Positions 778 to 4,538 of a DNA stretch of 64,000 bases are shown here, one piece after another (position 1 is the first letter of the stretch; every line of letters begins with the position of its first letter). Source of the stretch: Oscillospiraceae bacterium. Lineage in GTDB: Bacteria; Bacillota; Clostridia; Oscillospirales; CAG-382. Where the stretch lies: assembly GCA_015064485.1 (NCBI GenBank), contig SVSD01000006.1:1-64000 (forward strand), in the 5' to 3' direction. The notes under the pieces were generated by a model, which did no database searches, was not told the DNA's origin, and saw nothing but the letters and a program-made list of their open reading frames with translations. The position numbers and the translations under genes were made by a program.

Positions 778-1293
778 CTATAACTCTATTTGCACATTAT
801 AATTTTCATCAATCAATACATATGGCAAACCGTGGGATATGCACATATCTTTATAATTCTTATTGTCAGCAATTATGCTTTCTTTTGTAAGTTCATCGTC
901 AAACAGTCTGTTTTCTATTACATTTGAGTACTTTTTTATATCGTTATAGTGATTTTCGATATACTTTTCGCTCATAACAAGGCAATAGAACTTTATATCC
1001 TTTAAATATTCCGCTTCGAAATATTTTTCCCAGTCCCCCGGCACATAGCATCCTTCGACGATCAGATTTTGCTTGTTTTCAATCGCAGTCTTTATCATTT
1101 CGCAAACGACAGGCCAAAGGTATTCTGTTAAACTATCGTCGTCTGAGAAGGGAGTAAGAGATGTGTTTTGCGACCGAATAAGCCCCATTTTCAAGTGGTC
1201 TATTGAAAGGTAGGGAAATCCATACTTTTCAAGAAACTTCTGCGCAAGGGCGGTTTTTCCTGTATGGGATGCGCCTGTAATTATGATTATCAT
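778..1293 (-). CDS. Small P-loop kinase/ATPase of unknown substrate
   Basis: The 171-residue protein opens with a Walker A loop, GASHTGKT at residues 7-14, followed by a DHLKMG segment and later a hydrophobic strand with NLIVEGCYVPG, the layout of nucleoside/adenylate-kinase-like and zeta-toxin-like P-loop kinases. No substrate motif identifies the acceptor. GGAG lies 7-8 bases before the ATG, and a minus-strand promoter lies at 1320-1348, so the gene is transcribed alone, after the small-RNA array. It resembles single-gene AAA kinases often found in accessory DNA. Family placement is fairly safe; function is not. Confidence 0.75.
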   Translation of the reverse strand: MIIIITGASHTGKTALAQKFLEKYGFPYLSIDHLKMGLIRSQNTSLTPFSDDDSLTEYLWPVVCEMIKTAIENKQNLIVEGCYVPGDWEKYFEAEYLKDIKFYCLVMSEKYIENHYNDIKKYSNVIENRLFDDELTKESIIADNKNYKDMCISHGLPYVLIDENYNVQIEL

Positions 1294-1422: not shown

Positions 1423-1517
1423 TAAATAAAGACGGCGGTAAGCCCGAACTGCTGAACATGTCAAAAAAGACCCGCAGCTTACACCCGAGATGCCCAATCG
1501 GAGACAATACCACCGCC
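1423..1517 (-). ncRNA. Hairpin RNA 1 of a six-unit array
   Basis: From the start predicted by its promoter (G at 1517), the minus-strand transcript opens with GGCGGT and closes with ACCGCC (1512-1517 with 1434-1439), then runs into GTCTTTATTTAT. Inside, GTAAGC/GCTTAC, CCGA/TCGG and GTC-TTTTTT-GAC can also pair, giving a branched fold of about 95 nt. There is no ORF with a ribosome site. It is the longest and most downstream member of the array. I do not recognise it as a known RNA family. Transcription is inferred from the promoter and terminator only. Confidence 0.6.
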
Positions 1518-1523
1518 GAATAC

Positions 1524-1552
1524 AGTATAGTTGAAAACAGCTTTGTTGTCAA
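1524..1552 (-). promoter_or_regulatory. Promoter of hairpin RNA 1
   Basis: On the minus strand TTGACA (1547-1552), a 17-base spacer and TATACT (1524-1529). The spacer begins with a dyad AACA-N4-TGTT also present in the promoters of RNAs 2 and 4. Confidence 0.8.
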
Positions 1553-1581
1553 TATTTTTTGCCAGCAATTGATTTTTTAAA

Positions 1582-1649
1582 ATAAAAAAGTAAGCATACG
1601 CTCAGCGGCTAACAAGAACGCTGCGCCACAGATCGAGGGATATGCTCAC
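1582..1649 (-). ncRNA. Hairpin RNA 2 (paralogue of RNA 4)
   Basis: The predicted transcript starts GTGAGCATA at 1649 and folds with AGCATA/TATGCT (1641-1646 with 1593-1598), then CCCTC/GAGCG and GUGGC/GCCGC, around a loop containing GTTCTTGTTA. It ends in CTTTTTTATTTT, so the whole RNA doubles as its own terminator. It is the same length as RNA 4, keeps the segments GTGAGCATATCC, CGATCTG, TTGTTAG and TATGCTT, and differs from it partly by compensatory changes in the stems. No known family is recognised. Confidence 0.75.
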
Positions 1650-1655
1650 AACAAA

Positions 1656-1684
1656 AGTATATCCTAAAACAACTTTGTTGTCAA
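1656..1684 (-). promoter_or_regulatory. Promoter of hairpin RNA 2
   Basis: Minus-strand TTGACA (1679-1684) and TATACT (1656-1661) are exactly 17 bases apart; the spacer starts with the AACA-N4-TGTT dyad. Confidence 0.85.
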
Positions 1685-1711
1685 CAGATTTTTTGACATC
1701 AATTTGAGGAT

Positions 1712-1781
1712 AAAGAAAAACCATAAAGCTTGAAACCGAGTCGGACACATCGTGGTTCGAGCAGTTTGAAGTTTATGGCTT
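1712..1781 (-). ncRNA. Hairpin RNA 3 of the array
   Basis: The minus-strand RNA pairs CCATAAA with TTTATGG (1772-1778 with 1721-1727), extended inward by CTT/AAG and AAAC/GTTT past small mismatches. The apical part holds CGAACCACGATGTG and CCGACTCG. The outer stem is followed directly by TTTTTCTTT. The predicted length is about 70 nt, and no ORF fits. It shares architecture but no clear sequence with RNAs 2 and 4. Confidence 0.65.
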
Positions 1782-1787
1782 AATACT

Positions 1788-1815
1788 ATTATATGCGAAA
1801 TACGATAAAAGTCAA
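1788..1815 (-). promoter_or_regulatory. Promoter of hairpin RNA 3
   Basis: Minus-strand TTGACT (1810-1815), 16-base spacer, consensus TATAAT (1788-1793). Confidence 0.75.
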
Positions 1816-1834
1816 TATAAAACTGTTCAGATAA

Positions 1835-1903
1835 AATAAAAAAGCAAGCATACCATCAGGGACTAACAACAACGATGCGTCCCAGATCGATGGATATGCT
1901 CAC
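1835..1903 (-). ncRNA. Hairpin RNA 4 (paralogue of RNA 2)
   Basis: The RNA starts GTGAGCATA at 1903 and forms AGCATA/TATGCT, CCATC/GATGG and GGGAC/GTCCC around the loop GCATCGTTGTTGTTA, then ends in CTTTTTTATTTT. Compared with RNA 2, an A-U pair becomes C-G in one stem and an A-U pair becomes G-C in the next, while a G-C pair becomes U-G. These changes support a selected RNA structure read from this strand. About 69 nt; no coding potential. Confidence 0.75.
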
Positions 1904-1909
1904 AGTAGT

Positions 1910-1938
1910 AGTATATCCGAAAACAATTCTGTTGTCAA
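1910..1938 (-). promoter_or_regulatory. Promoter of hairpin RNA 4
   Basis: Minus-strand TTGACA (1933-1938), 17-base spacer with the AACA-N4-TGTT dyad, TATACT (1910-1915). Confidence 0.85.
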
Positions 1939-1949
1939 TACATATAGAA

Positions 1950-2008
1950 TAAAAAACATCGGGAGGGCGACGGTGCCCTGTCTGCATTACAGAACGGCCC
2001 GCTCACTA
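1950..2008 (-). ncRNA. Hairpin RNA 5 of the array
   Basis: The predicted RNA contains CTGT/ACAG and GGGC/GCCC hairpins (the latter 1975-1978 with 1965-1968) and ends CCCGATGTTTTTTAT. An outer inverted repeat, ACATCGGG at 1956-1963 with CCCGATGT at 2011-2018, overlaps the -10 box, so it could form fully only in RNA read from upstream. The 5' end and exact extent are therefore the least certain of the six units. Confidence 0.5.
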
Positions 2009-2014
2009 TCCCCG

Positions 2015-2043
2015 ATGTTATCACAAAAGAGGATCTTTGTCAA
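2015..2043 (-). promoter_or_regulatory. Promoter of hairpin RNA 5
   Basis: Minus-strand TTGACA (2038-2043), 17-base spacer, TAACAT (2015-2020). The -10 box lies inside the outer inverted repeat of the unit. Confidence 0.65.
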
Positions 2044-2111
2044 CCATAGATTTCTGAAATCATATTTATAGAAGAGGTTTTTTAAAATTACAGACATTTT
2101 ACTATATATAA

Positions 2112-2184
2112 ACAAGAAAAGAAGTCATAACTATCTGACTCAGCCGAGGTACAATTCCTTGGGAAGTTAAATAGTTATGACTTC
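2112..2184 (-). ncRNA. Hairpin RNA 6 of the array
   Basis: The minus-strand RNA begins with GAAGTCATAACTAT and ends with its perfect 14-base complement (2171-2184 with 2121-2134), followed by TTTTCTTGTTT. The inner 36 bases contain CCAAGG/CCTCGG, which can pair with one wobble. The predicted start (G at 2184) coincides with the first base of the stem. About 73 nt, no ORF. It is the most upstream unit of the array. Confidence 0.7.
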
Positions 2185-2190
2185 AATAGC

Positions 2191-2219
2191 ATTATACACA
2201 AAATAATATCAAGTGTCAA
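2191..2219 (-). promoter_or_regulatory. Promoter of hairpin RNA 6
   Basis: Full consensus on the minus strand: TTGACA (2214-2219), 17 bases, TATAAT (2191-2196). It overlaps the first codons of the truncated ORF on the other strand. Confidence 0.88.
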
Positions 2220-3373
2220 TGGGGGAACAATTCAATAAAAAAGAAAACACCGAGGCCATTGCCACTGGAGCCAGTGGCTCTAAAATGGCATTAACAAACC
2301 TCGATGTTAATGATAGTATAACCGAAAAAGGTTCGAATGTCAATACTTCAAATGATGATGTTGAGGAAAGGACTGCATCAGAAAGTTTGATTTCAATTGG
2401 GGAATATAACAAAAACAGCGAATATATACCTTCGAACAAAAAAGCGCAGGATATTTATAACCGAAATTTAAACGCAATGCTCCGCAAAGCGGAAAGTTTA
2501 TTTTCTGTTCCGCACGGAGAAGCTGTTGCGCACATAAAACCGATTATCGAGGAAATGGCGGCAAAGCTTGTGAATCGAAACGGCAATATCTCAGATGATG
2601 AATATTTTAATCTGACTTTGGAGCTTATCGGAAGAGCTCAATATATCGACAGCGAGTTTTACGATATGTATAAGGATCTGAAAAAGACTCTTCGCAATAC
2701 TCCCATATCGGTAAATAATTCGGTTAAAAATTCTTTTTCTCATTGGAATGATTTCAGAAAATCCACAATGGGCGTTTTGACGATATCAAATGAAGGTATG
2801 CCGCTTGATTCTGTTTATAATGAGCTTTCGGATAATTATCCCGAGTTTTTCCCGGAAGATCTTCACGGAGAGGACCAGCTATACAAACTTCTTGAAGTTG
2901 CAAAGAATATAAAAGTAGTCAACAGAGGTTATGCTGAATACTTCGGTGATAATGCCGAGGAAATGGCTCACTCTATGATGACAGAGTTTAAACGGTATAT
3001 TCAAAATGAAATTGCCCCCGAGCTTTCGTCTCTTGAGAGATATGATGCTGAAATAAAAGGCAAAATAGCGACAGCAAACGATTTTGATGTTGAAAATTTC
3101 GATATCAAACAAGCTATGAATAACAGCAAACAGGCAAATGCTTTGCGAAAGAAGATTCAAAATGCAATGAATAAAAATGTACTTACGCAAAGAGATAAGC
3201 TGATGATCAAACGCATAGTTGACGGCGAAATGGATTATAGCGAACTGCCGGAGGATGTAAACCGAAAGGCAATAGGAGAAATTTCAAAGCTTGAGAATAT
3301 GTATGAAAAGAGGTCTGTAAAATCGTTTACAGACCTCTTTATTAAAATCAAACCTTTGAAATATCAACAGTAA
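2213..3373 (+). pseudogene. Truncated fragment of a probable mobile-element polyprotein
   Basis: An open frame of 386 codons runs from a stop at 2204, but neither the GTG at 2213 nor the ATG at 2219 has a ribosome site, and the consensus promoter of hairpin RNA 6 overlaps them. The protein is acidic and helical, with segments such as SHWNDFRKSTMGVL and EFFPEDLHGEDQLYKLLEVA. These recall internal parts of very large polyvalent phage/plasmid proteins of gut Clostridia; this is from memory and not verified. Its end reads through a hairpin at 3307-3340, so the last 20 or so residues are probably not native. Both ends therefore look cut. An intact gene with a remote start is not excluded. Confidence 0.5.
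3307..3340. terminator. Hairpin between the ORF fragment and the large operon
   Basis: Fifteen perfect base pairs (3307-3321 with 3326-3340) enclose the loop ATCG. The stem ends in AAA/TTT on both sides, but the U-tract is short in either direction. It can serve the minus-strand operon that ends at 3348. Confidence 0.7.
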
Positions 3374-3848: not shown

Positions 3849-4538
3849 TTAATCACCTGATTCTACGATAAGTGCTGAGCCTTTTTCAAGAGTTATCAAA
3901 GCTTTTTCCGAAACTATTTCGTTTGATACCGTCACAAAGCGTTTGCGGAAAAGTTTTTCGGCTTTAAAGGGGTATTTGAAATTTTCATCCATCGAAACCC
4001 CGAAAACACAATCGTCAAGAGGAATGAGCGACAGGTATTTTCTGATGGAAGAAAGGACATTTTCACTTTTTGCAAGATACGCTCTGTTTTTGCCGTCGGT
4101 TATTATTCCCGATGCTCCGTTTTCCTTTATATACTCAAGTAAGTATATATTTGCAAGAGTATGGTCAAGCCGTCCGCCAAGTCCGCCTGCGATTATTATA
4201 TTTTTACATCCAAGCTCAAGCGCTGTCGAAACTGCAAGGGCGGTATCTGTATCGTTTTTTTCGGGAGGAAAAGAAACAAAGCGGGCTTTGGGGTAGAGTT
4301 TTTCGATGCTTTCCCCTTTATATGAATCCATATCTCCCAAAATTATGTCGGGCGAGATCTCATATTGCTTTTTTGAAAATTCACCGATAAGCAAACAACC
4401 TGAGTCTGCGGCAATTATTATATCGTCTTTTTCGGGAAGATCTGTCATCTTTTCCGGCCAGAAACCACTTCCGCCTGTAAATATAAAAGCTCTTTTTGAG
4501 GTGTTTTTTTCAAAAGAGTCAAGATTAATCCCATTCAT
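3849..4538 (-). CDS. thiN: Thiamine pyrophosphokinase
   Basis: The enzyme transfers pyrophosphate from ATP to thiamine, making thiamine diphosphate in the cytoplasm. The 229-residue length and the motifs fit the family: AADSG near residue 45, GDMDS near 70, an ENDTD-like PEKNDTDTAL segment near 93, and GGLGGRLDHTLAN near 117. The start overlaps the end of rsgA by 14 bases, and GAGGAG lies about 13 bases upstream. In related genomes thiN follows rsgA and rpe; rpe is missing here. Confidence 0.93.
   Translation of the reverse strand: MNGINLDSFEKNTSKRAFIFTGGSGFWPEKMTDLPEKDDIIIAADSGCLLIGEFSKKQYEISPDIILGDMDSYKGESIEKLYPKARFVSFPPEKNDTDTALAVSTALELGCKNIIIAGGLGGRLDHTLANIYLLEYIKENGASGIITDGKNRAYLAKSENVLSSIRKYLSLIPLDDCVFGVSMDENFKYPFKAEKLFRKRFVTVSNEIVSEKALITLEKGSALIVESGD

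Follow-up and report, generated by a model that had tools for sequence, protein, structure and literature searches.

Putative small-RNA genes arrayed in an Oscillospiraceae genome and their relatives antisense to RNase-like domains of phage polyvalent genes

What do several densely packed units, each with a promoter, a hairpin and a U-tract of its own, do in the genome of an Oscillospiraceae bacterium, and where do they come from? The window analysed here, the whole 64,000-nucleotide stretch from position 1 to 64,000 of contig SVSD01000006.1 (assembly GCA_015064485.1), raises this question close to its start. There, a first-pass annotation made from the sequence alone had listed six minus-strand units at 1423-2219, had predicted that they are independent small-RNA genes of no known family beside a mobile-element fragment, and had guessed at decoys, antisense RNAs or the RNA part of a defence or toxin-antitoxin (TA) system.

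The seven-unit array

All six units were found on re-inspection, each with its own promoter, hairpin and U-tract, in agreement with the prediction of independent small-RNA genes. The count was short by one, since a seventh unit (2343..2238, minus strand) lies beyond the six and extends the array to approximately 1423-2343. The seven units share one plan: a TTGACA-like box and a TATAAT-like box 16-17 nt apart, then, after about 6 nt, a segment of 60-87 nt closed by a long stem, and a U-rich tail.

Unit 1 (2113..2219) and unit 5 (1582..1684) carry the two promoters that had been called full or near-full consensus, and they proved to match it at 12/12 (TTGACA-17-TATAAT at 2219-2191) and 11/12 (TTGACA-17-TATACT at 1684-1656) positions, respectively. 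The 64-nt hairpin of unit 1, which precedes a U-tract, consists of a long outer stem and an inner AGG-AAUUGUA-CCU hairpin, the MuF_C-type core described below (fold z -5.9; 59.7 bits). Unit 5 (60-nt hairpin, U-tract, 64.4 bits) and unit 3 (1836..1938; TTGACA-17-TATACT at 1938-1910, 11/12; 60-nt hairpin, U-tract, 62.0 bits) are sisters with 83% identity over 112 nt and show compensatory changes; the other units are alike in architecture, not in sequence. Unit 2 (1947..2043) has a weaker promoter (TTGACA-17-TAACAT at 2043-2015, 10/12), the -10 box of which overlaps the stem of the hairpin (ACATCGGG/CCCGATGT), and ends in a six-T run (z -4.7; 24.6 bits). Unit 4 (1710..1815; TTGACT-16-TATAAT at 1815-1788, 11/12; hairpin and U-tract) scores low, at 28 bits, because its spacer is 16 nt long. 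Unit 6 (1423..1552; TTGACA-17-TATACT at 1552-1524, 11/12; U-tract) has a longer, 87-nt hairpin closed by GGCGGT/ACCGCC (z -2.1; 58.5 bits). Unit 7 (TTGACA-17-TATACT at 2343-2315; hairpin and U-tract, with the stem AACATCGAGG/CCTCGGTGTT, then TTCTTTTTT) is the top-scoring unit in the window at 65.2 bits (covariance model R1). Units 1-6 fold better than shuffled sequences, with z from -5.9 to -2.1 (unit 7 was left out of that run). The pattern TTGACA-N16-18-TATAMT occurs eight times in the 64-kb window, against 0.06 occurrences expected, and five of the eight lie inside the array.

The mobile-element fragment is indeed there, and its nature had been missed: the ORF at 2213..3373 (plus strand) is a piece of a phage polyvalent protein that matches phrog_22978 (E 5.5e-15). 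Unit 7 lies antisense in this ORF, the first codons of which are the reverse complement of the unit (peptide ...NKKENTEAIATGASGSKMALTNLDVNDSITEKGSNVNT). When polyvalent proteins and LPD3 were searched against INPHARED by tblastn, three of the four queries had no match, and the single distant one, to a human-gut phage contig (25.5% identity, E 6e-16), was that of the window fragment. Profile searches of the window genome gave no match to MuF_C, LPD3 or PBECR3, and its array is therefore considered an orphan. Downstream of the array (778-1293, minus strand) there is a small P-loop kinase-like gene, whose AAA, zeta-toxin and CPT profile matches are weak and below the cut-offs.

The units belong to no known family that we could find, as had been expected. 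Against Rfam 15 at gathering thresholds, the whole window returned LSU rRNA, 5S rRNA and tRNA only, and the unit region at E<=5 gave just four chance-level matches, so that no Rfam family matched the units. Twenty unit-bearing Clostridia loci yielded tRNA and tmRNA only, and five E. coli and phage loci with units yielded no family. A description of this RNA gene class was found neither in Rfam nor in the literature searched, which does not prove that none exists. The 951-bp array has no full copy elsewhere; related genomes match in short pieces only, and phages and plasmids at chance level only. A CRISPR array was rejected on the grounds that each unit has its own promoter and that the sequences differ, only units 3 and 5 being alike.

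Relatives inside phage polyvalent genes

BLAST of the array against 60 related genomes detected a copy of unit 4 (76% identity, E 1.2e-12) in a congeneric genome, on the antisense strand of a polyvalent gene whose domains include MuF_C, PBECR3 and LPD3. In two other genomes we found multi-unit arrays of unrelated sequence and identical architecture. A covariance model was built from 14 seed units (promoter, 10-bp stem, variable inside and U tail), part of which were picked by a hairpin detector; in this partly detector-chosen set, 97% of the cells are paired and all ten of the ten stem pairs change on both sides. A covariance-model search, of the kind that the first-pass annotation had suggested, revealed a widespread unit family, with a unit in 48 of 394 genomes of the order at E<=1e-6. 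Across the phylum (398 genomes, E<=1e-7), units were found in two genomes only, the window genome and one of the same order. Weak matches were listed at E<=0.01 in 61 of the 63 genomes of the host family, and most of these were judged to be noise, given how often scores below about 35 bits occur and that very short matches are among them.

Of 99 family units, 60 have 6 nt between the -10 box and the stem, which means that the hairpin begins at the expected start site; the median hairpin length is 66 nt. Compensatory changes were also observed between tandem orphan copies on host chromosomes at three further loci (L304, L305 and L300); for distant copies (L306, parts of L301 and L304) the alignment is poor and many stem pairs are broken. 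Judged by these sequence comparisons, selection on the RNA level is supported.

Most units lie in an open frame on the opposite strand, nearly always in one phase of translation: reverse-complemented, the -10 box is read as S-I and the -35 box as V-N/K, and the U-tract supplies a lysine-rich start. The proteins opposite the units are up to 3297 aa long and carry MuF_C, PBECR3/5, LPD3, LPD25 and ART domains. At L271 the polyvalent gene stands among prophage virion genes (an assignment read from the neighbouring genes). Consensus promoters (12/12) are found in 10 of 38 units that no longer lie in a long frame (orphans) versus 2 of 51 embedded units, as would be expected if coding restrains the embedded promoters.

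The position of the embedded units was tested with domains taken by protein profile alone, to avoid circularity; a few of the 30 loci share contigs. An antisense promoter, hairpin and U-tract follow just after the domain end in 22 of the 30 MuF_C/LPD3 domains, the remaining 8 having no clear unit, versus 2 of 90 antisense control pieces from these genes; on the sense strand the count was 0 of 30. For PBECR3 the outcome was predicted before looking, and a unit-like structure was present after four of four domains in ORFs of at least 797 aa, where L336 scored 22.2, below the threshold of 23, and was counted by a 37.5-bit model match, and L337 has the hairpin with no U-run after it. Our first guess, units at every module boundary, was given up after the control with ART-PolyVal domains of like proteins (0 of 8). 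Solo PBECR3 genes (119-165 aa; L327-L335, L338 and others) have a unit in none of 18 cases, so the pairing of domain and RNA is not universal. Taken together, these counts tie the RNA gene to RNase-like domains of large polyvalent proteins, not to module ends generally. At L248 (1375-1607), two units are antisense to an open stretch of 1035 codons whose domains are EcoEI_R_C and N6_Mtase, not MuF_C or LPD3, and a unit may therefore follow other domains too.

The RNA cores differ between domains. MuF_C units have an inner hairpin with the loop AAUNGNA and a closing stem of four pairs that covaries; this inner-stem set was chosen by a three-pair pattern, and the covariation is thus supportive, not independent. 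PBECR3 units have the core CGUYUYGGACGU, LPD3 units next to ART have GCUAAG...CUGAAC, and LPD3 units are heterogeneous in their inner sequence. Going by these distinct cores, the RNA core follows the domain class. Two candidate roles for the loop were discarded: a CsrA-type decoy with GGA in the loop, since the loop is AAUNGNA and several units have no GGA, and an anticodon-loop mimic, as U is absent at the second loop position.

MuF-C and PBECR have independently been predicted to be BECR-fold RNases that are injected along with the phage DNA (Iyer et al. 2017, PMC5512222). Used on its own, Foldseek assigned neither MuF_C nor LPD3 to a fold with confidence. Among the chains compared, both AlphaFold2 models came closest to RNase toxins: that of MuF_C matched best a Salmonella TA toxin and BrnT (Z 4.3), and also RelE and CdiA-CT, and that of LPD3 matched best the CdiA-CT of Serratia (Z 4.7) and Klebsiella (Z 4.2); Z values all below 5 are low and little proof on their own. 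MuF_C, LPD3 and PBECR3 would on these models and that prediction be RNases by fold only. Read on the other strand, an embedded unit encodes the last MuF_C helix and a linker; in the model this helix is followed by a low-confidence tail, and the promoter of the unit therefore sits in a probably disordered linker. As the units are partly protein-coding, part of their conservation could be at the protein level.

In a text search, the paper that described the polyvalent proteins (Iyer et al. 2017, PMC5512222) proved silent on antisense, promoter, sRNA and noncoding, and RNA genes embedded in polyvalent genes appear to be undescribed so far.

Orphan copies and reach beyond Clostridia

Orphan arrays stand beside ordinary chromosomal genes at L305 and L301. 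At 240-960 of L305, upstream of its five-unit orphan array, there are several direct repeats of another type, about 55 nt, GTCGCATTCTCCTGATATGGTGGTCAGACGGTAGCGAAGC, together with CACGGTAGGRNTYCC-like boxes. At six loci (L010, L300, L245, L261, L307 and L302) orphans lie shortly 3' of tRNA-Ser, -Arg, -Val, -Glu or -Tyr genes, or 1.3 kb from tmRNA, on the same strand, as would fit what is left of integrated elements.

In IMG/VR, the MuF_C-type unit pattern was found in 22 contigs, in 21 of which a unit lies antisense in open stretches of 478-3199 codons. Many of these units have TTGCGG/A, not TTGACA, as the -35 box; this degeneracy of the embedded -35 in gammaproteobacterial phages makes constitutive transcription less certain there. 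One contig and Escherichia phage PhiR5_2 have 76 nt in common at 94.7% identity and almost no other megablast match, while looser alignment showed that the coding flank beyond the unit is related as well; another unit-bearing contig is related to an Aeromonas phage. A tandem-promoter pattern gave ordinary promoters and no units among the IMG/VR matches listed, and a related-locus search of IMG/VR with polyvalent proteins gave nothing.

MuF_C-type matches are present in 98 of 5426 E. coli genomes. Some are inside prophage LPD38 polyvalent genes, and others are intergenic in a satellite-like element that encodes a primase, SSB, a ProQ/FinO protein, PerC regulators and antiterminator Q. In this element the first hairpin follows a TATAAT box, at least five MuF_C-type hairpins stand in a row (three were folded by script and two read from the sequence), and the last ends in a T run. 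The row has one promoter and one terminator and no MuF_C gene beside it: the individual promoters were lost while stems and loops were kept, which suggests that the working part is the hairpin itself. One gene upstream of the row (at about 3930-4420 of loci L448-L450) lies the ProQ/FinO-family gene. ProQ/FinO proteins bind hairpin RNAs, and this neighbour may therefore be a chaperone of the hairpin RNA.

Possible function and comparison with known systems

It is well supported, as far as RNA gene class, placement and orphan arrays can be read from DNA, that the window array represents orphan copies of an undescribed phage-borne small-RNA gene. Since orphan units would be stand-alone copies of an RNA gene found at the ends of phage RNase domains, they may well be decoys against those enzymes. 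We propose as the most likely reading, at a little under an even chance, that the RNAs bind and neutralise the cognate phage RNase domain and that orphan arrays provide immunity, as antitoxin or decoy. The decoy or TA/defence part of the original functional guess fits this comparison, which also brings in what that guess had missed, the copies in phage polyvalent genes next to RNase-like domains.

The embedded gene, which is found on the antisense strand at the 3' end of the coding sequence for a BECR-fold RNase-like domain, usually one per domain, would in the proposed mechanism give from a constitutive sigma-70 promoter a closed hairpin of 60-90 nt, beginning with its own stem and terminated by a U-tract. 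RNase domains that are packaged and injected would require an immunity factor in the producing lysogen, and neighbours would profit from one too. The hairpin, made constitutively inside the gene on the opposite strand, would mimic the substrate of its own RNase; the decoy would block the cognate domain and the phage-carrying lysogen would be protected. Copies without the protein, kept and multiplied on host chromosomes and phage satellites, would act as immunity in trans against injected polyvalent RNases. Somewhat more tentatively, we suggest that the orphan arrays form an acquired RNA immunity repertoire of bacteria and phage satellites against injected phage nucleases, from Clostridia to E. 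coli, drawn from an RNA gene that lies antisense within each RNase domain end.

An unlikely alternative, yet one to be weighed seriously, is cis-antisense regulation, in which the RNA pairs with the polyvalent mRNA, or transcription interferes, so that the gene is silent in the lysogen, much as with the antitoxin RNA of type I TA, and orphans silence incoming phage genes in trans. In its favour, the units run strictly antisense to the gene and carry strong promoters and terminators; complementarity of RNA and mRNA is given by construction. They lie, however, in mid-gene after RNase-like and not ART domains, not near the start, often several per gene, and neither class-specific cores nor the multi-hairpin array of E. 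coli is necessary for pairing. Orphans differ by about 25% from known embedded units, with compensatory changes that would weaken pairing with the mRNA, and a silencer is powerless against a protein that is injected ready-made.

A recombination site or palindrome at cassette ends, that is, a mobile or module-boundary hairpin whose promoter-like parts are secondary and whose arrays are scars of domain loss, seems improbable. It would fit the mosaic make-up of polyvalent proteins (Iyer et al. 2017, PMC5512222), the place of the units at domain ends in one constant reading frame, and the tRNA and tmRNA genes, typical attachment sites, near which several orphans lie. Such a hairpin needs neither a sigma-70 promoter 6 nt from the stem nor a U-tract, and would leave without explanation why ART domains in these proteins have no unit after them, why promoters improve in orphans and why tandem orphan arrays adjoin ordinary chromosomal genes. 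Least probable is that the units are host defence or regulatory RNAs which phage RNases evolved to cut, the phage copies being bait or capture: orphan arrays do sit in host chromosomes, and PBECR diversity was proposed to answer host RNA-based restriction (Iyer et al. 2017, PMC5512222), but the copies in phage genes are antisense to the RNase domain and keep one reading frame in different families and phyla, an indication of phage origin, and no conserved partner protein adjoins the chromosomal arrays looked at.

If the decoy reading is right, annotation misses by construction a layer of phage-host conflict, that of RNA genes opposite coding sequence; orphan arrays gain a role that can be tested, that of RNA immunity to RNases injected from the virion; and the idea of an RNA-based conflict behind PBECR diversity (Iyer et al. 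2017, PMC5512222) becomes directly testable. Should the mechanism prove wrong, an undescribed RNA gene family with a fixed place behind nuclease-like domains, in phages from at least two bacterial phyla, would still call for an explanation.

In type III TA systems (ToxIN, CptIN, TenpIN), a structured, often repeated small RNA inhibits an RNase toxin. A small structured RNA set against an RNase toxin is the likeness to the present units, for which that relation is proposed here. The type III RNA repeats form a tandem run under one promoter, directly upstream of the toxin and in its orientation, and the ToxN-fold toxin cuts them out of one precursor, whereas each present unit brings a promoter and terminator of its own, is encoded antisense within the sequence for a BECR-like domain and recurs in orphan arrays; a row under one promoter is seen only in E. 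coli, where no MuF_C gene is beside it. The best matches of MuF_C and LPD3 are BrnT, RelE and CdiA-CT at Z <5, values at which a missing match to the PemK/MazF-like ToxN does not exclude that fold.

As in type I TA, where the RNA is antisense to the toxin mRNA, the embedded units are antisense to the polyvalent gene; the type I toxin, however, is a short hydrophobic peptide, and the genes opposite the units encode hundreds to 3297 aa. In the C. difficile RCd pairs of clostridial prophages a small antisense RNA lies opposite the mRNA of a short hydrophobic peptide (PMC7699646), while the present units face the ends of RNase-like domains, one per domain, and occur in orphan arrays as well.

MuF toxins are phage-borne, MuF-associated toxin domains with variable C-terminal modules (Jamet et al. 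2017, PMC5576092). The units share with polymorphic toxin, CDI and MuF systems such phage-borne domains and modules and, as putative ones, stand-alone immunity determinants in non-producers, and units next to BECR-like modules and orphan arrays match polymorphic-toxin immunity by position. Immunity in those systems is conferred by proteins encoded downstream, whereas the candidate factor here is an RNA antisense within the toxin gene. The embedded units are located in exactly the genes described as polyvalent (MuF_C, PBECR3, PBECR5, LPD3, LPD25, LPD38, ART; Iyer et al. 2017, PMC5512222). The arrangement of the RNA gene appears to be new, and proof of the decoy mechanism would place its mode of action with that of RNA antitoxins.
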